From Pseudoxanthomonas japonensis (GTDB taxonomy: Bacteria > Pseudomonadota > Gammaproteobacteria > Xanthomonadales > Xanthomonadaceae), in the NCBI RefSeq assembly GCF_010093445.1, contig NZ_PDWW01000020.1:1-64000 (forward strand): a stretch of DNA of 64,000 nucleotides, given 5' to 3'. Numbering within the stretch: position 1 is the stretch's first letter; the number at the start of each line of letters is the position of its first letter. Shown here in pieces: positions 28,199-37,780 of this stretch. A program made the position numbers and the translations under genes. The notes below the pieces were generated by a model. It was not told the origin of the DNA. It worked only from the letters and a program-made list of their open reading frames with translations, and searched no databases.

Positions 28199-29197
28199 AT
28201 GTCCGTCGTCGAATCGCCCCGCCCCGCCCTCGCCCTGTCCGGCATCCAATCGCTCGCCCAGGCCGACATGGCCGCCGTCGATGCCCTGATCCGGGCGCGG
28301 CTGGCGTCGGACGTGGTGCTGATCAACCAGATCGCCGACCACATCATCTCGGCGGGCGGCAAGCGCCTGCGGCCGATGCTGGTGGTGCTGGCCGGCCAGG
28401 CCTGCGGGCCGACCACAGCGGACCACCACCAGCTGGCGGCCATCATCGAGTTCATCCACACCTCCACCCTGCTGCACGACGACGTCGTGGACGAGTCCGA
28501 CCTGCGCCGCGGCCGCAGCACGGCCAATGCGCTGTGGGGAAATGCGCCCAGCGTGCTGGTCGGCGACTTCCTGTATTCGCGCAGTTTCCAGCTGATGGTG
28601 GAACTGGACCGCATGGACGTGATGCGCCTGCTGGCCGATACCACCAACCGCATCGCCGAAGGCGAAGTGCTGCAGCTGCTGCACGTCCACAACCCCGATA
28701 CCGACGAGGCCGCCTACCTGCGCGTGATCGAGCGCAAGACGGCCGTCCTGTTCGCCGCCGGCACGCAGCTGGGCGCGATGGCATCGGGCGCGGCAGGCAA
28801 CGTCCCGCAGAAGCTCTACGACTACGGCATGGCGCTGGGCTATGCCTTCCAGATCGCCGACGACGTGCTCGACTACACGGCCGACGCCGAAGCACTGGGC
28901 AAGAACCTCGGTGACGACCTGGCCGAAGGCAAGGCGACGCTGCCCCTGATCCATGCGATCCGCCACTCCGACGCCGCCACCGCCGATCGCCTGCGCACCA
29001 TCGTGCAGGAAGGCGACGCGGGTGCCATGCCCGAAGTGCTGGCCGCCATCCGCGCGACCGGCGGCCTGGACTACAGCCGCGAGCGCGCGCATCACTACGC
29101 CACGCTGGCCGAGCAGGCGCTCGATGGCCTGCCCGAGTCCGATGCCCTGGCCGCCCTGCGCGGCCTGGCGCGCTACGCGGTGGAGCGCGGGCACTGA
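28199..29197 (+). CDS. ispB: Octaprenyl diphosphate synthase (trans-polyprenyl synthase)
   Basis: Chain-elongating prenyltransferase that makes the side chain of ubiquinone. The 332-residue protein has both Asp-rich motifs, DDVVDESD (94-101) and DDVLDYTAD (221-229), plus GGKRLRP near 53-59. The all-helical fold and length agree with IspB. The exact chain length cannot be deduced with confidence from the sequence; octaprenyl is the usual product in xanthomonads. Confidence 0.95.
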   Translation: MSVVESPRPALALSGIQSLAQADMAAVDALIRARLASDVVLINQIADHIISAGGKRLRPMLVVLAGQACGPTTADHHQLAAIIEFIHTSTLLHDDVVDESDLRRGRSTANALWGNAPSVLVGDFLYSRSFQLMVELDRMDVMRLLADTTNRIAEGEVLQLLHVHNPDTDEAAYLRVIERKTAVLFAAGTQLGAMASGAAGNVPQKLYDYGMALGYAFQIADDVLDYTADAEALGKNLGDDLAEGKATLPLIHAIRHSDAATADRLRTIVQEGDAGAMPEVLAAIRATGGLDYSRERAHHYATLAEQALDGLPESDALAALRGLARYAVERGH

Positions 29198-29210: not shown

Positions 29211-29990
29211 TCACTTCGCGAACACCTCGGCGAAGAAGTCCGCCATCATCCGGTAGGCACGCTTTGCCGAGCGCTCGTGGTAGACGCAGCCGGGCGGGTT
29301 CTGCGCGTCGGACTCGGCGAAGCAATGCACGGCGCCGCTGAAGTTGACGAACTGCCAGTCGGCGCCGGCCTTGCGCATTTCGTCCTGGAACGCCGTGATC
29401 TCCGCAGCCGAGACATAGGTATCGTCGCCGCCGTTGAGCACCATCACCGGCGTCTTCACGGGCCCCGCCGCAGGAAGATCGGTCGCCAATCCGCCGTGCA
29501 GGCTGACCACGCCGGCGAGTGCGTCACCGGCACGCACCAGTTCCAGTACCGTGCTGCCGCCGAAGCAATAGCCAAACGCACCGATGCGTGCGTGGTCCAC
29601 CAGCGTGGCGGGCTGCTGCTTCAATACCTCGACGGCCTTCTGGACCCGGGCCCGCAGCTTCGGACGGTCGGCGCGCATCGCGGTGGCGACCGGACCGGCC
29701 TCGGCATCGGTCTTCGGTCGGATGCCCTTGCCGTAGACGTCGGCGACCAGCACCACGTAGTCGTTGCCGGCGACGAGATGCGCCTTCTCGATTGCGGACT
29801 CGTTGACGCCCTTCCAGTTCGGCACCATCACCAGGCCCGGGCGCGGGATCTTCACGCTGTCGTCGTAGACGAGGTAGCCGGAGAACGTATCGCTACCGAT
29901 CTTCCATTCAACGGGCTTGGCGACCGGCGCCGCCAGCAGCGCGGGCGACCACAGCAGGGACAGCAGGCAGGGCAGTAACAGGCGGCGCAT
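29211..29990 (-). CDS. Dienelactone hydrolase-family protein, exported
   Basis: Alpha/beta hydrolase of the dienelactone hydrolase family with a signal peptide (cleaved near residue 20). The nucleophile is the cysteine in GYCFGG (C142), with Asp in NGGDDTYVS and His in GAVHCF completing the triad. The 259-residue form starting at 29990 has a GGAG upstream; the longer ORF adds 14 residues ahead of the signal. The natural substrate is unknown; the export signal makes a role in chloroaromatic degradation less likely. Confidence 0.9.
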   Translation of the reverse strand: MRRLLLPCLLSLLWSPALLAAPVAKPVEWKIGSDTFSGYLVYDDSVKIPRPGLVMVPNWKGVNESAIEKAHLVAGNDYVVLVADVYGKGIRPKTDAEAGPVATAMRADRPKLRARVQKAVEVLKQQPATLVDHARIGAFGYCFGGSTVLELVRAGDALAGVVSLHGGLATDLPAAGPVKTPVMVLNGGDDTYVSAAEITAFQDEMRKAGADWQFVNFSGAVHCFAESDAQNPPGCVYHERSAKRAYRMMADFFAEVFAK

Positions 29991-30061
29991 GGCAGGCTCC
30001 TCGTGGGGGACCTGCCGAGTGTAAGACCGCATGCTTGCGGCGGCGTCGACAGCAGGTGACG

Positions 30062-31465
30062 TCAGGCGATCCCGAGACCGGGAATCGCCGTGATGGCGTC
30101 CGGGTCGAAGCCCGCCAGTTCGGCAAAATGACGGCCACGCGCGACGTAGTCCTTGTACTGGCCGAAGCTCGGCGCGCCAGGCGACAGCAGCACGACGCCG
30201 CCTTCGCCCAGGGCCGCCCGTGCGGCAGCGACCGCCTCCGGCAACGTCCCGGCGGCCATCAGCGTGAAGCCGGCCTCCTGCGCCACCGGCGCAAGCAGGG
30301 CATGGATGCGCGGGCCGTTGGCCCCCATCGTGACGATGGTTGCGGGCGCACCGTCGCGCATGTGCTCGGCAAACTCGGACCAGTCCACGCCGCGGTCGTG
30401 CCCGCCAACCAGCAGCGCGATACGCCGGCCGGCGAAACAGTCCAGTGCGGCCAGCGTGGCGTGTGGCGTGGTGCTGATCGAGTCGTTGACCCAGGTGATC
30501 CCGTCGCGCGTGCCCATCACTTGCAGGCGGTTCGGCAGCGGACGGAACGACTGCGCGTGCGCCGCCAGCGGTCGTGCTTCGATGCCCGTCGCTTCCAGCG
30601 CGGTCAGCACCGCACAGAGATTACTGCGGTTGTGGCGACCGGGCAGCGGCAACGGACGCGTGTCCATGACGAACACATCGCCGCGGTACAGGTCATCCTC
30701 GCGAAGATGCCAACCGTCCGCGCGGTTGAACCAGCGGATCTCGCTGTTCGGCAACCGGAGTGCGGCCAGCCGCGGGTCGGCCGCATTGAGCACGGCAATG
30801 CGCGGGTGCGCGTCGGTGACGAGCTTCAGCTTGTCCTCGATGTAGCGCGCTTCACTGCCGTGCCAGTCCAGGTGTTCCGGGAACAGGTTCAGCACGACGG
30901 CGACATCGGGATGCGCACCGCTCACCGCGACATCGCCGGTCTGGTAGCTCGACAGCTCGATGGCCCACGCCTCCGGCGCTGGCTGCGGATCCAGCACTTC
31001 CAGCATCGGCACGCCGATATTGCCGACCAGTGCGGTGCGGCGCCCGGAGGCGCGCAACAGATGCGCCAGCAGCGAGGTCGTGGTGCTCTTGCCCTTGGTG
31101 CCGGTGACGCAGAAGGTGTTCGAGACCACACCGTTGTCGCCCGCATGCTCGGCGAACCACAGGCTGGTGCCACCGATGAAGCGCGTGCCCGACGCCGTGG
31201 CCGCCACCGCTGCCGGTCCATTGGGACTGATGCCAGGCGACTTGATGACAACATCGAACGCCGACAGCCGCTCTGCCGTCGCCTGTGTCTCGACAGAGAG
31301 CAGTTTGTCGTCCAGCGCGGCGGCCTCGACGGCTTCCGCCTCGCTGCAGAACAGCGTCAGCGGCATCGAAAGCAGGCGCGAACGTACCGCGAGATAGGCG
31401 GCACGGCCTTCGCGACCCCAGCCCCAGAGGGCGACACGCTTGCCCTCAAGCTGCGAAATTCGCAC
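30062..31465 (-). CDS. murD2: MurD2, UDP-MurNAc-L-Ala--L-glutamate ligase
   Basis: Mur ligase that adds L-glutamate (not D-glutamate) to UDP-MurNAc-L-alanine, working with the epimerase MurL encoded just upstream; this two-step route was shown in Xanthomonas oryzae. The 467-residue protein has the Mur ligase P-loop [10 protein letters not shown] (121-130), the ELSSYQTGD segment, [11 protein letters not shown], and the C-terminal domain with [16 protein letters not shown] start at the GTG at 31465, preceded by GGGAG, because the longer ORF adds 81 Arg-rich residues antisense in character. It overlaps murL by 20 nt. Classical MurD would be the alternative call; the murL neighbour decides. Confidence 0.92.
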
Positions 31466-32801
31466 GCAGGCGCTCCCACAGCGCGGCGGGAATGCGGTGT
31501 TCGCCGCCGATTTCCAGCAACGGCGCCACCGCCAGTTCCGCGGCATCGAGCTGCGGGCGGATCTCGTGGTTGAAGCGCGCAACGATCGCGTCCTCGCGCC
31601 ATTCCGGCCGGTCGCCGAGCGTCGCCATCGCCGCACGCGACTCCTGGCCCTCGCCAACGCATTCGAACGGCTTGTGGTCCTGGTACTCCAGCAACGCATC
31701 GAACCCACCCGTCTGGTTCACGTCATCCAGCAGGTTGCGGCCGAAGATGCCGACCAGGCGCGGCTTGGGCATGAACGGCGCCAGCGCCAGGAACACGAAG
31801 TGGCACTTCGGGCACACGCCGCACCAGCGGTTGGTCGGGCGCTCGCCGAGCAGGTGGAAATTGCGGTTGCAACTGGAGAAATGCGCGTCGTAGTGGTCGG
31901 TGCGCGCGAACTGCCGCGCCACCGCCAGCTCCGAGAGCGGGCGCAGCAACGAGTAGTAATGCAGATCCGCGGCGACATGCGACTGGACATAGTCGCCGAA
32001 CGCCTGCTCGAAGGCCCAACCCTTCGACCACTGGTGGTTCACTTCGCCGGTGCCGGGAATCATGCTGCCGTAGCTGGCCGAGCGCTCGTTGGAGAACACC
32101 ACCTGGTCCACGCCGTGCAGCAGCGCGGCCAGCACCATGATCGCCGAGTTGATCGCGGTGACCGGGATATGCCCGTTCCACGCACCCTGGCGGTTGTACT
32201 CGAACAGCTCCGGCGCCAGCGCACGGCCGATGTTGAGCGTGGGCAGGCCCGTACGCGCTGCGCAGGCCGCGATCAGCTGCGAACCGCCGATCCACGTCAC
32301 CGTCTGGTCGACGCCGGCACCCCGCAGCGCCTCGATGCTGACCAGCGAATCCTTGCCGCCGCCGATGGCGACCAGCGCATGCTCATGTAGGCCAGCGGCG
32401 GGCGCGCGGGACTGCGCCTGAGCGCCGACCGGGAAACGCACACGGCCATGCAGGCTCAGGCCGTTGCGGTAGGCGAACTCGCCCAGCCCGTGCACGTAGA
32501 CCTGCTCCATCAGCACGGCGGTCGCTGCGTCGATGGCATAGCCGTCGATGCGGATCTCGCTGGGCACCGCCGCCTTGTAATAGCTGACGCCAGTGATGAG
32601 GTGCAGCAGGCGCACTGCCTGCTCGACCGCCTGCGTGCGCGTGGCATCCAGCGTGAACGGCGCGCCGGGAATCGTGACGGTTTCCGTCAGCTCCGGGCCG
32701 TCGTCGAAGGCGTACACCAGCCGCGCGACGCCGGTTTCCGTCTCGAAGGAACAGCGGACGAAGCGGAAGGCGCGGATGGCGGATTTGTCGAAGTTCGTCA
32801 T
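31446..32801 (-). CDS. murL: MurL, UDP-MurNAc-L-Ala-L-Glu epimerase
   Basis: ATP-dependent epimerase that converts the terminal L-Glu of UDP-MurNAc-L-Ala-L-Glu to D-Glu, replacing glutamate racemase MurI in peptidoglycan synthesis. The 451-residue protein has a PP-loop-like ATP site GGGKDS (147-152) and a Cys cluster [10 protein letters not shown] in its second half, both seen in MurL homologues. ATG overlaps the stop of the upstream membrane-protein gene by 4 nt. Pairing with murD2 makes the assignment strong. Confidence 0.93.
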
Positions 32802-33289
32802 GCGGGGTCCGTACAAGGAACGGCCTGCCGTCGCAGGTAGCGACGGCAGGCGAAGTATTCAAGGAGGAACGCGGGTGCGGCGCCGAACACGATCGCCGCC
32901 AGCGAGCCATAAAAGACGATGATCGGCAACCAGGCCAGGGATTCCCGCAGGTTGCCCGGACTCGCGGCGGCCATCTGGTCGATCGCCAGCGTGACCGCCG
33001 CCCAGGCGGCGAGCGCCAGCGGGAACAGCAGGAACACCACCAGCAAGGTACGCAGCGTCATGCCTCCCGGCTTCCAGTGGCGGCCCATCGCCACGACGCG
33101 CCCATGCCAGCGGGTGGAAAACCAGGCCCCTACACCCGCTGCCAGCAGTACGGCAGGCGCGATGCGCAGCGCGGAGGCGACGTCCCGCATGCCGGCATGA
33201 CGCTCCACCCCCACCAGCCACGCGATGCCGACCGTCAGCACCGCGGCAACCAGCAGGCTGGCTCCGATGAACTCAGCCCGCGGCGACAT
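32798..33289 (-). CDS. Four-TM membrane protein, unknown function
   Basis: A 163-residue protein with four hydrophobic helices (about 9-28, 40-58, 80-102 and 123-147) and no recognised domain. It overlaps the lysA fusion gene by 17 nt upstream and murL by 4 nt downstream, so it is translated within a cell-wall precursor operon. The start at 33289 (MSPRAEFIG) gives a compact protein; a longer start adds 14 residues. Position suggests a role linked to envelope precursor metabolism, but nothing in the sequence names it. Confidence 0.8.
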   Translation of the reverse strand: MSPRAEFIGASLLVAAVLTVGIAWLVGVERHAGMRDVASALRIAPAVLLAAGVGAWFSTRWHGRVVAMGRHWKPGGMTLRTLLVVFLLFPLALAAWAAVTLAIDQMAAASPGNLRESLAWLPIIVFYGSLAAIVFGAAPAFLLEYFACRRYLRRQAVPCTDPA

Positions 33290-35903
33290 CGCCGGACACT
33301 CCTTCGATGACGTCCTCTGCCGGCAGACCACGCAGGTTGTAATGGCTGGCCATCACGAATCCGTAGGCACCTGCATCGGAGAACAGCAGCACATCGCCTT
33401 CGGCCGTCGCCGAGGCCAGCTTGCGGCGCTTGCCGAAGATGTCGCTCGACTCGCAGATCGGACCGACCACGTCGAACGGTTCCTGTTCGGTGTCGTCCAG
33501 GCGCGACAGGTTGGCCACGTCGTGCCAGGCGTCGTACAGCGCCGGGCGGATCAGCGTGTGCATGCCGGCATCGCTGCCGACACGACGGATGCCGAGCTTC
33601 TCGACGACCTGGGTGACGTGCGCCAGCAGGACGCCCGATTCGGCGACCAGGTAGCGACCCGGCTCGATGACAAGCTGGTAGGCCGGATAAGCGGCCTTGA
33701 TCGCGGCCAGGCCTTCGCCCCACGCCGCCAGGTCGAACGGCTCGTCCCCTTCGGCATACGGAATCGGCAGGCCGCCGCCGATGTCGATCGTCTCGATGGT
33801 GCCGATCTGGTCGGCCAGTCCACCCAGCTCATCGGCGATCTGGTTCCAGTGCTGCGCGCTTTCCACGCCACTGCCGAGGTGCGCGTGGAGGCCGGTGATG
33901 CGCACGTCGATCGCACGCGCCGCGGCGAGGAATTCGTCCAGCTTGGCCAACGGCAGGCCGAACTTCGAGCTCTTGCCGCCCGTCTTGACCTTGTCGTGGT
34001 GGCCGTCGCCGCGACCCAGGTCCACGCGCAGCCACAGCCGGCGTCCGCGGAACACCTCAGGCCATTGCTGCAGCGCCTCGACATTGTCGAGGGTGACGTT
34101 GATGCCGCGCTCAAGCGCGAACGCGTACTCGGCGCGCGGCGCGAAACTCGGTGTGAACAGCACGCGCTCCATCGGCAGCGACGGCGCAATCTCGAACACG
34201 CGCTCCAGTTCGCCCCGCGAGACGCATTCCAGACCAAAGCCTTCTTCCACCAGCGCCCGCAGGATAGTCGGATGCGAGTTGGCCTTGATGGCGAAGAAGC
34301 GCCGATCCACCGCGGTGATCGCGGCCAACGCGCGGGCCCGCGCACGCACGACGTCCAGGTCGTAGACGTAACGCGGCGTTTCGCCCTGTGCCAGGGACAG
34401 CAGCCGATCGCGCGCGGACGGCGCGCTCCACCAGCGCACGCCGCGGTGGCGCACGGCGCCGTTGATCTCGCGCCAACTGGGCCCGAACACGCTGGCCTCG
34501 TCGGCCGGCATCGCGCCGCTTTCGATCAGCGCCTCGTGCAGCAGCGGAAGCATGCCGTCGGCGTCGGCTTCGTCGATGACGAAGGTCAGGTTGAGATCGT
34601 TCGACGACTGCGAGATCAGGTGCACCCGCTCGCGGCCGAACATCGCCCACACGTCCGACAGCTTGTGCAGCAGCGAACGCATGCCGCGCCCGACCAGGGT
34701 AATCGCCGTGCACGGCGCGATCACCTTGACCCGGCAAATCTCGGCCAAGTCGGCAGACAGCGCGGCCAGCACGTCGGTGTTGACCAGGTTTTCGCTGGGA
34801 TCCAGCGACACGGTGACGTTGGTCTCCGAGGAGCCGATCAGGTCCACCGACAGGCCATGCTTCTTGAAGCGCGCGAACACGTCCGCCAGGAAGCCGACCT
34901 GCTGCCACATGCCGATGCCTTCCATCGACACCAGCACGATGCCGTTGCGGCGACTGACCGCTTTCACGCCGGGCACGGTCAATGCCGTGCCGTCGATGGT
35001 GGTGCCGGGCAGTTCGGGACGCTCGGTGTCGAGGATCGCCATCGCCACGCCGGCATCGCGGCAGGGCTTGATCGAGCGCGGGTGCAGGACCTTGGCGCCG
35101 GTCGTCGCGATTTCCTGCGCCTCGTAATAGTCCAGTCGTGTCAGCAGGCGTGCGTCGGGCACTTCGCGTGGGTTGGCGCTGAACATGCCGGGCACGTCGG
35201 TCCAGATTTCCACGCGCTGCGCACCGAGCAGGGCGCCGAAGTATGCCGCCGACGTATCCGAGCCGCCGCGGCCGAGGATGGCGGTACCGCCGTCGGCGTG
35301 CCGCGAGATGAAACCCTGGGTCAGCAGCATCCGGTTCGCCTGGCCGGCGAACGCACGGCGCCAGTCCTGGTCGGGCGCGGTATTGCACGACACCGACAGC
35401 CGCTGCGCCCACGGGCTCTGGTTGGGCAGGAAGTTCGCCTGCAGCCAGTGCCGCGCGTCGACCCAGCCGAAATCTAGGCCCTGCGCGCGCAGGTAGGCGA
35501 CGCCGATCGTCGAGGAAAGCAGTTCGCCCTGCCCCAGCACCTCGGCCTGCCAGTCCAAGGTGCGACTCGCGGCACGCGGATCCGTGAGCAGGTTGCGCAA
35601 CGCGGCCAGGCGATCGCCCAGCACGGCATCGGCGTCGAGCTCCAGTTCCGCGAGGAACTCACGGTGGCGCTGCTCTAGCGTCGCCACGCGCTCGGCGCTG
35701 TCCGCGGCGCCGTCGGCGATCGCGGTCAGTTCGTTGGTCACGCCGGACAGCGCCGATACCACCACGAGGATCCGGGCCTCGTTCTCGTCCGCCCGTTTTT
35801 TCGCCAGCGTACCGATCGTGTTCCAGCGGTGGCGACGCGACACCGAGGTGCCGCCGAACTTGAGGACGATCCAACGATCAGACGCGGGGGTGGCAGAGGG
35901 CAT
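33273..35903 (-). CDS. lysA: Bifunctional aspartate kinase/diaminopimelate decarboxylase
   Basis: A fusion of the first and last enzymes of the meso-DAP/lysine pathway, 876 residues. The N-terminal aspartokinase has KFGGTS (15-20), GRGGSDTSA (211-219) and two ACT-like regulatory segments (about 320-470). The C-terminal alanine-racemase-fold decarboxylase has the PLP lysine in FFAIKANSHP (K540), the HLGSG motif and the CESSDIFG substrate motif near the C-terminus. The fused protein is characteristic of Xanthomonadaceae. Combining both activities may tie lysine feedback to DAP consumption. First gene of the lysA-TM-murL-murD2 run. Confidence 0.96.
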   Translation of the reverse strand: MPSATPASDRWIVLKFGGTSVSRRHRWNTIGTLAKKRADENEARILVVVSALSGVTNELTAIADGAADSAERVATLEQRHREFLAELELDADAVLGDRLAALRNLLTDPRAASRTLDWQAEVLGQGELLSSTIGVAYLRAQGLDFGWVDARHWLQANFLPNQSPWAQRLSVSCNTAPDQDWRRAFAGQANRMLLTQGFISRHADGGTAILGRGGSDTSAAYFGALLGAQRVEIWTDVPGMFSANPREVPDARLLTRLDYYEAQEIATTGAKVLHPRSIKPCRDAGVAMAILDTERPELPGTTIDGTALTVPGVKAVSRRNGIVLVSMEGIGMWQQVGFLADVFARFKKHGLSVDLIGSSETNVTVSLDPSENLVNTDVLAALSADLAEICRVKVIAPCTAITLVGRGMRSLLHKLSDVWAMFGRERVHLISQSSNDLNLTFVIDEADADGMLPLLHEALIESGAMPADEASVFGPSWREINGAVRHRGVRWWSAPSARDRLLSLAQGETPRYVYDLDVVRARARALAAITAVDRRFFAIKANSHPTILRALVEEGFGLECVSRGELERVFEIAPSLPMERVLFTPSFAPRAEYAFALERGINVTLDNVEALQQWPEVFRGRRLWLRVDLGRGDGHHDKVKTGGKSSKFGLPLAKLDEFLAAARAIDVRITGLHAHLGSGVESAQHWNQIADELGGLADQIGTIETIDIGGGLPIPYAEGDEPFDLAAWGEGLAAIKAAYPAYQLVIEPGRYLVAESGVLLAHVTQVVEKLGIRRVGSDAGMHTLIRPALYDAWHDVANLSRLDDTEQEPFDVVGPICESSDIFGKRRKLASATAEGDVLLFSDAGAYGFVMASHYNLRGLPAEDVIEGVSGDVAAG

Positions 35904-35923
35904 GGATAGAATGGGGGTGGGAT

Positions 35924-35940
35924 GCCCGAACCCTTCGGGC
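35924..35940 (-). promoter_or_regulatory. Leader hairpin and -10 box before the lysA fusion
   Basis: A 7-bp stem GCCCGAA/TTCGGGC around CCC lies 21 nt upstream of the lysA start. On the minus strand a TAGAAT box (35957-35952) would place the transcript start just ahead of it, so the hairpin would form at the 5' end of a leader of about 40 nt. No leader peptide or riboswitch fold is evident. Confidence 0.4.
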
Positions 35941-35991
35941 GTGAACCGTCGATTCTAGCCCAAGCTCCCGGGCCCGACCGGACCGTACCGC

Positions 35992-36870
35992 ATGCAACGA
36001 ACCTCCCACCGCTATCTGCAGGTCGACGTATTCGCCGATCGTCCCGGCGCGGGCAACCCACTGGGGGTGGTCATGGATGCCGATGGCTGGGATACCGACC
36101 GCATGCAGGCGTTCGCGGCTTGGACCAACCTGTCCGAAACCATCTTCTTCCTGACGCCGACCACCCCGCACGCCAGCTACCGCATCCGCATCTTCACCCC
36201 GCGGCAGGAGCTGCCGTTCGCGGGGCATCCGAGCGTCGGCGCCGCCTGGGTGGCGCTGGAGGCCGGCCTGACCGATGACGCGGACAGGCTGGTGCAGGAA
36301 TGCGCGGCCGGCCTGCTGCCGATCCGTATCGACGGCAGCGGACGCCAGCGGGCGATCCGGTTGCGGGCACCGCGCGCACGTCGCGTCGATGCAACAGCAT
36401 CGCCTGCCCTCTTGGACGCCGTGGTCGCGCACCTTCCCATCGCGGGCCTGGCCCCCGCCCTCTGGAACAACGGACCTTCGTGGTGGCTCGTTGAAACGGA
36501 GGACGCCGATGCCGTCCGGCGCCTGGCGCCCGACCTGCCTGCCATCGCCGCGCTGACGCAGGCGACCGCGGCCGTCGGCCTGGCGGTCTTCGGCCGCACG
36601 CCGGCGGGCACCGACCCTGACCTCGCCGTGCGTGCCTTCTGCCCGGCCGACAACATCCCGGAAGATCCGGTCACCGGCAGCGTCAACGCGTGCATTGCTG
36701 CCGCACTCCACGCCGCCGACGCGCTGCCCGGCAACGACCGGTGCTATACCGCCAGCCAGGGGCGCGAACTCGGCCGCGACGGTCGCGTCGCCTTGCAGGT
36801 CGATGACGAGGGCGAAGTCTGGATCGGCGGTCAGGTGCAGTTGGTCATCGACGGCCGGGTGACTTGGTAA
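35992..36870 (+). CDS. PhzF-family isomerase-like protein (copy 1)
   Basis: Diaminopimelate-epimerase-fold protein of the PhzF family, 292 residues. It has the N-terminal VDVFADRPGAGNPLGVV signature, the catalytic-type Glu in LSETIF (E49), FAGHPSVGAA and the C-terminal EDPVTGSVN phosphate/oxyanion motif, all intact, so it is probably an active enzyme. Most PhzF relatives outside phenazine clusters have unknown substrates. It diverges from the lysA fusion and is followed after 31 nt by a paralogue of identical length. Confidence 0.9.
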   Translation: MQRTSHRYLQVDVFADRPGAGNPLGVVMDADGWDTDRMQAFAAWTNLSETIFFLTPTTPHASYRIRIFTPRQELPFAGHPSVGAAWVALEAGLTDDADRLVQECAAGLLPIRIDGSGRQRAIRLRAPRARRVDATASPALLDAVVAHLPIAGLAPALWNNGPSWWLVETEDADAVRRLAPDLPAIAALTQATAAVGLAVFGRTPAGTDPDLAVRAFCPADNIPEDPVTGSVNACIAAALHAADALPGNDRCYTASQGRELGRDGRVALQVDDEGEVWIGGQVQLVIDGRVTW

Positions 36871-36901
36871 GCTGCGCGGCCCCCACGCGACCACGTCCCC
36901 C

Positions 36902-37780
36902 ATGACCCTCCGCCGCTACGTCCAGCTGGACGTATTCGCCGACCGCCCCGGCGCCGGCAACCCGCTGGCCGTCGTCCTCGACGCCGCCGGCCTCGACGAC
37001 GCCGCCATGCAGGCCATCGCCCGCTGGACGCGCCTGCCGGAAACCACGTTCGTGTTCGCCCCCACTCAGCCGGGCGCGAGCTATGCCGTGCGCATGTTCA
37101 GCCCGCGCCGCGAAGTACCGTTCGCGGGCCACCCCAGCGTCGGCACCGCCCATGTCGTGCTCGATGCCGGCCTCGCCTCGCCCGTCGACGGCCTGCTGAT
37201 GCAGGAAGGCGCAGCCGGCGTGCTGCCGCTGTGCGTGGATGGCGAAGGCGCCTCGCGCACGATCGCCGTTCGCACGCCGCGGGCACACGTCGTGAAGATC
37301 GGTGAGCCGGCTTCCGATGATGTGCTGCGTGCAACCCTCGCAACTTTACCTGCCGGCGACCTGCCGCCCGCCCTGGTCGACGGTGGTCGCCGCTGGTGGC
37401 TGGCGGAGGTGCGCGACGAGGCCGCACTGCGTGGAGCGATACCGGACTGGGAAGCCATTGGCGCGCTCGCCCGTGCCAGCGAAAGCATGGGTGTCTGTGC
37501 GTACGCACGCACGCCTGGGCAGCCGTATGACCTGGCCGTACGTGCCTTCGTCGGCGCGCCTGCCGCATTCGAGGATGCCGCCTCCGGTGCCGCCAACGCG
37601 ACGCTGGCGGCCTGGCTGGCGGCGCGCGATGCGCTGCCCGGCCGCGACGGCCGCTACATCGTCAGCCAGGGCCGCGAAGTCGGCTACGACGCGCGCCTTC
37701 AACTGCGCGTGGACGACGCGGGCGACGTGTGGTCCGGCGGCCATGTGCGTACCATCGTGACCGGTGAGATCGACTGGTAG
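36902..37780 (+). CDS. PhzF-family isomerase-like protein (copy 2)
   Basis: Tandem paralogue of the preceding gene, also 292 residues, with LDVFADRPGAGNPLAVV, the Glu in LPETTF (E47) and FAGHPSVGTA. The C-terminal motif, EDPVTGS in copy 1, reads EDAASGAAN here, so substrate binding has probably changed. Divergence along the whole length suggests an old duplication. A GTAG palindrome follows its stop codon. Confidence 0.9.
   Translation: MTLRRYVQLDVFADRPGAGNPLAVVLDAAGLDDAAMQAIARWTRLPETTFVFAPTQPGASYAVRMFSPRREVPFAGHPSVGTAHVVLDAGLASPVDGLLMQEGAAGVLPLCVDGEGASRTIAVRTPRAHVVKIGEPASDDVLRATLATLPAGDLPPALVDGGRRWWLAEVRDEAALRGAIPDWEAIGALARASESMGVCAYARTPGQPYDLAVRAFVGAPAAFEDAASGAANATLAAWLAARDALPGRDGRYIVSQGREVGYDARLQLRVDDAGDVWSGGHVRTIVTGEIDW

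Follow-up and report, generated by a model that had tools for sequence, protein, structure and literature searches.

Coupling of lysAC to murL and murD2 in Pseudoxanthomonas japonensis and related bacteria: a probable cell-wall precursor operon

The canonical route to D-glutamate (D-Glu) in peptidoglycan, MurI plus MurD, makes D-Glu first. An alternative D-Glu pathway, MurD2/MurL, has been described in Xanthomonas oryzae (XOO_1320/XOO_1319) and is credited to Feng et al. 2017, according to the portions of two papers on which we draw (PMC8788868, PMC5808125). In the same portions of the first of these, the reactions of MurD2 and MurL are shown for X. oryzae, residues E197 and R358 are reported to set the L-Glu specificity of MurD2, and the pair is proposed as a narrow-spectrum antibiotic target (PMC8788868). 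The pathway is presented there as two genes alone, with no link to aspartokinase (AK), no fusions and no fold for MurL. Here, we describe a locus in a 64,000-nucleotide stretch of Pseudoxanthomonas japonensis DNA (contig NZ_PDWW01000020.1, positions 1 to 64,000; hereafter the window) in which murL and murD2 follow lysAC, a gene encoding AK and diaminopimelate (DAP) decarboxylase in one protein. We propose, with a probability of about 0.68, that the locus is an operon for cell-wall precursors in which the supply of both MurE substrates is coupled. It is an operon of known enzymes and a known pathway, present in many public genomes. A literature search that covered few subscription papers found no report of lysAC-murL coupling or of an AK-MurL(-MurD2) link across families, and did not find AK-MurL or MurL-MurD2 fusions, a natural Arg-to-Lys change or the MurL fold.

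The four genes lie head to tail in the following order:

35903 (ATG) to 33273 (stop), minus strand: LysAC, 876 amino acids (aa)
33289 (ATG) to 32798 (stop), minus strand: 163-aa membrane protein of an orphan family, accessory, with about four hydrophobic helices
32801 (ATG) to 31446 (stop), minus strand: MurL, 451 aa
31465 (GTG) to 30062 (stop), minus strand: MurD2, the L-Glu-adding Mur ligase, 467 aa

The gene for LysAC overlaps that for the membrane protein by 17 nt, the membrane protein gene overlaps murL by 4 nt (ATGA), and murL overlaps murD2 by 20 nt. An earlier note, made from the sequence alone, had named these genes and overlaps, and the coordinates of the open reading frames (ORFs) confirm them; the three enzymes score over their NCBIfam cut-offs. 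LysAC matches NF006515 over residues 4-867 with 1404 bits (cut-off 802), with an aspartokinase domain at about 11-461 and a diaminopimelate decarboxylase domain at about 507-866; its Pfam matches are AA_kinase, ACT_9 and two decarboxylase domains. In carrying both halves, it resembles the described bifunctional aspartate kinase/diaminopimelate decarboxylase (NF006515, PRK08961). MurL matches NF041275 over residues 4-448 with 844 bits (cut-off 700), and MurD2 matches TIGR01087 with 306 bits (cut-off 212). A simple sigma-70 scan of 29900-36100 found no promoter-like sites, compared to a mean of 0.3 in shuffled sequences, and is hence uninformative on internal promoters; the scan for terminator-like sites gave 2, compared to 2.7 in shuffles.

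MurD2/MurL is very probably the D-Glu route of this genome, because neither a MurI (best TIGR00067 match 28 bits, cut-off 146.65) nor a D-amino-acid transaminase scores over cut-off, and the window's MurD2 is the one murD that does. The class IV aminotransferases of the genome are two, of the branched-chain and PRK09266 types. The earlier note had asked for the loss of murI and of classical murD function to be confirmed; neither a MurI nor a second murD over cut-off was found in this genome. Its statement that the MurL route is known from Xanthomonas also holds for this locus: like the X. oryzae pathway, it has a MurL over cut-off in a gene adjacent to murD2, and E197 and R358 are present in MurD2 at the published numbers.

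On the DAP side, the genome encodes two aspartokinases: besides LysAC there is one in a frame of 831 aa, which from its length is presumably an aspartokinase-homoserine dehydrogenase (AK-HSD). No DAP decarboxylase other than LysAC scores over cut-off; a further match (239 bits) falls below it and has a stop inside the matched stretch. The AK half of LysAC would open the DAP pathway and the decarboxylase half would drain meso-DAP to lysine, so that LysAC would set the DAP pool. The product of MurD2/MurL and meso-DAP would then meet at MurE. Under this proposal, the genes would be co-transcribed, flux would be coupled, MurL would carry out a QueC-like adenylation, and the enzymes may contact one another.

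The coupling to the DAP/lysine branch extends over several families of the order. Among 151 genomes surveyed (genomes, loci, families and genera are cited by our G, L, f and g numbers), MurL was found in 146, LysAC in 137 at E <= 1e-150, a MurD2 match in 149 at E <= 1e-30, and MurI over cut-off in three (G019, G119 and G126). Every genome of the window's family (f1; 25 of 25) and of f12 (24 of 24) has LysAC on the same strand as MurL and no more than 1.2 kb upstream of it. In 77 of 80 named loci, LysAC is the gene immediately before MurL, which is beyond chance; this sample was chosen by MurL similarity and is biased to close relatives, and the exceptions are L194 (contig edge), L169 and L170. 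Xanthomonas, Stenotrophomonas, Pseudoxanthomonas, Lysobacter, Luteimonas, Dyella and Rhodanobacter are represented among the 77 linked loci.

In f7, the MurL-linked copy differs from the bifunctional family in having the AK half only. MurL is present in 32 of the 39 f7 genomes, and a stand-alone AK lies directly upstream of it in 20 of these 32, counting two loci cut by contig ends (G107 and G156) and one with broken frames (G153); four further genomes were not judgeable (G112, G151, G155 and G162). Most f7 genomes with a linked AK also have a LysAC elsewhere. None was found at E <= 1e-150 in G063, G097, G137 and G142, where the linked AK adjoins MurL. We placed these proteins in an AK tree of 68 rows, which takes 6 genomes each from f1 and f12 in addition to the window and omits the partial G107 AK. 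In it, the 14 f7 MurL-linked AKs group as one clade (100/100), nested in a branch (100/100) shared with all 35 operon LysACs and with 6 unlinked LysACs, of which three are from f7; the remaining 11 f7 unlinked LysACs fall outside that branch. Support for the position of the clade within this branch is weak (84/86), and the root lies on the long AK-HSD branch. The simplest reading of these sequences would be that in f7 the operon copy lost its decarboxylase half and another LysAC remained.

Three pairs are each fused somewhere: AK with decarboxylase (LysAC itself), AK with MurL, and MurL with MurD2. AK and MurL share a single open frame in all four g59 genomes (f7). This frame encodes 942 aa in G127 and 935 aa on each of two contigs in G164, and is cut by contig ends in G117 and G163. 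It was located as follows:

L129, 4276-7104: AK-MurL single frame
L249, 4346-7153: AK-MurL single frame
L250, 4109-6916: AK-MurL single frame
L130 and L251: AK-MurL single frame

MurL and MurD2 form a single open frame in seven genomes (G008, G028, G108, G133, G148, G056 and G147), which are 5 of the 6 g19 and 2 of the 5 g44 genomes; the frame lengths given by the MurL and MurD2 searches agree for these. AK-MurL, in most cases joined by MurD2, is the core that is kept together most strongly; the decarboxylase half and the membrane protein can be replaced.

Several observations weigh against a cell-wall precursor operon that couples the two supplies. The weak MurI match in the P. japonensis genome is a 231-aa YgeA-like racemase (L001; 332 bits to PRK10200, cut-off 417, and over cut-off for TIGR00035), which could make some D-Glu. 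G126 has both MurL and MurI over cut-off and keeps E197 and R358. MurL stands without a nearby AK in G006 (f6), in G010 (f10), in 8 of the 12 loci read from f9 and in those read from f8, and eight f7 genomes have room at MurL and no AK there (G007, G018, G049, G070, G122, G158, G160 and G161). In f11, LysAC-MurL is kept and MurD2 is on another contig in six genomes (G011, G021, G030, G038, G059 and G066). Outside the order, neither an AK nor a decarboxylase was found beside MurL in any of the nine loci read among 10 MurL-bearing genomes; MurD2 adjoins MurL in eight of the nine, and the locus of G221 ends at a contig edge. The membrane gene is patchy: a full ORF of its family is present in 6 of 22 f1 loci, and a tblastn match in 14 of 80 named loci, X. 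albilineans (L172) retaining a remnant only. The larger module suggested by the earlier note is thus partly supported, for the coupling to the DAP/lysine branch, the AK-MurL pair and its fusion, and not for the membrane protein as a part; likewise, conservation of the operon across the family holds for LysAC-MurL and fails for the membrane gene.

One alternative interpretation is ordinary operon inheritance: two genes for cell-wall supply became neighbours a single time and remained so because their overlapping frames are difficult to separate, giving shared expression and no special functional coupling. A single origin of the link with later losses would agree with the AK tree, and the many genomes without an AK-MurL link, together with the departure of MurD2 in the six f11 genomes, fit this explanation as well. 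However, inheritance alone sits poorly with an AK that stays by MurL in f7 without its decarboxylase half and fuses with MurL in g59. We consider this explanation possible, and clearly less probable than a cell-wall precursor operon.

The f7 AKs also bear on how such an operon may be controlled. Their kinase motifs are conserved: all 14 f7 linked AKs have GRGGSD, and 12 have KFGGTSV, of which the other two carry one-letter variants. A changed effector of the f7 linked AK is hinted at by its sequence, because the ACT segment differs (ATSETTTT in f7 linked AKs, GSaETNVTV in operon LysACs and STSES.VTV in unlinked LysACs) and Pfam ACT_9, which matches the window's LysAC with 49.7 bits, falls to 20.6 bits in the AK-MurL fusion, under the cut-off of 27. 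A more speculative extension, which we regard as rather unlikely, is that the MurL-linked AK belongs to a peptidoglycan-precursor complex in which AK, MurL and MurD2 would be in contact, and that it would be controlled by a muramyl precursor or DAP and not by lysine. The contact is suggested by the AK-MurL and MurL-MurD2 fusions, and the control is hinted at by the ACT segment change and the ACT_9 drop.

At MurD2 position 358, all 191 readable loci with MurL have Arg (185 with E/R and 6 with D/R at 197 and 358); these loci are not all independent, as some named contigs are also among our G genomes; two further MurL-bearing loci were unreadable at these positions. The six loci with Asp at 197 and R358 kept are L098, L099, L109, L134, L143 and L254. 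Among the four loci without MurL, G119 has E/K, G019 has D/K, G132 has ?/R (truncated), and one row has E/R; the last is presumably G117, whose MurL lies on another contig. Both G119 and G019 lack MurL, have MurI over cut-off, and carry Lys at 358. These two genomes of the same order appear to use the canonical MurI plus MurD route. In G119 (L108, 3072-7100; L123), MurD2 begins 72 nt after LysAC and MurL is gone from between them, while its genus mate G020 keeps MurL; the G119 contig with MurI also carries its AK in an 840-aa frame. The G019 protein shares no more than 32% identity and is possibly an ordinary MurD. MurI-bearing, MurL-less genomes with a changed specificity residue are a natural counterpart of the published mutants. 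Two f7 genomes (G042 and G092) have no MurL, no MurD2 match at E 1e-30, and weak MurI-like matches of about 50 bits.

Neither Pfam nor NCBIfam gave a match to the membrane protein at E <= 0.001. Its hydropathy indicates about four hydrophobic helices and its structure model (pLDDT 77.9) has four long helices; a structure search with this model found no relative at E <= 0.001. A homolog search that scored only the 7996 candidates sharing most words returned 88 homologs, and all those with an organism name are from Xanthomonas or Pseudoxanthomonas, the nearest being 80% identical. One could view this protein as an anchor or sensor that organises LysAC, MurL and MurD2 near MurE/MraY. Its gene overlaps both neighbours, at its start and at its stop, and its RRYLRR tail and the EF close to its start do not vary among 42 homologs. 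This role is nonetheless improbable, given that the gene is patchy while LysAC-MurL stays and that the protein is fast evolving (47% identical to a same-genus copy, compared to 84% for the flanking LysAC and 86% for MurL). The same patchy distribution led us to reject the membrane protein as an essential part of the module. Elsewhere, the slot between LysAC and MurL is nearly empty or holds other small ORFs. Small membrane ORFs without a tblastn match to the window's protein occupy it in G012 (two), G031, L190 and L220. In f12-type loci (L072, L073, L075, L078, L079, L083, L088, L215, L219, L230, L236, L242 and L247), it holds small ORFs that we take to resemble DUF559 nucleases. A 12-bp hairpin at 32851-32823 on the minus strand, inside the end of the membrane gene, is formed by the codons of the invariant RRYLRR. 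We dropped it as a candidate attenuator, as it tracks these codons across loci, perfect in some and often imperfect.

That the fusions are assembly artefacts is very improbable: all are in draft genomes with many contigs, contig ends truncate three of them (G117, G163 and G133), and the nearby G153 has apparent frame breaks in AK and MurD2, but AK-MurL is fused in every g59 genome, the MurL parts of both G164 contigs are 75-76% identical to that of G127, and MurL-MurD2 recurs in two genera.

MurL itself has so far been described as having no known conserved domains, and we found no Pfam match at E <= 10 and no PADLOC match. Its alignment contains an invariant GGGKDS and five invariant Cys. The predicted structure has a QueC-like PP-loop fold with the PP-loop motif present, as in QueC (2pg3), QatC (9y01) and Cap9 (9nto), although none of these has a significant sequence match to MurL. 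Against the PDB, the single sequence reached a best E value of 0.17, and the profile one of 0.014, to the PP-loop of TtuA. Comparison of MurL with QueC by hhalign, using 11 of 14 QueC ORFs (L278, L279 and L287 were left out), gave E 0.0063 in one comparison, with a probability of 5.9 and with the PP-loop and four Cys aligned. In QueC, the Cys bind zinc, and the reaction yields an amide or nitrile. MurL, in contrast, epimerises in its published reaction and makes neither. The modelled QueC-like PP-loop fold agrees with the chemistry of MurL, in which ATP is converted to AMP, and MurL may adenylate in a similar manner. Such a fold would explain the use of ATP by MurL with release of AMP and would point to its active site.

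The surroundings of the operon are as follows:

Downstream of MurD2, minus strand: hydrolase, the next gene
35992-37780, plus strand: two adjacent ORFs divergent from the operon, the first of the PhzF family (over cut-off) and the second similar-looking
28199-29197, plus strand: convergent polyprenyl-diphosphate-synthase-like gene, which we take to be IspB

The convergent gene has a tblastn match in 115 of 209 neighbourhood loci searched, including f7 loci.

Joint management of DAP supply and D-Glu addition in this order is suggested by the AK-MurL link and the fusions. Contact between AK and MurL and control of aspartokinase by a muramyl compound become directly testable. If aspartokinase is indeed controlled by a cell-wall precursor, then cell-wall demand, and not lysine demand, would set entry into the aspartate pathway in these bacteria.

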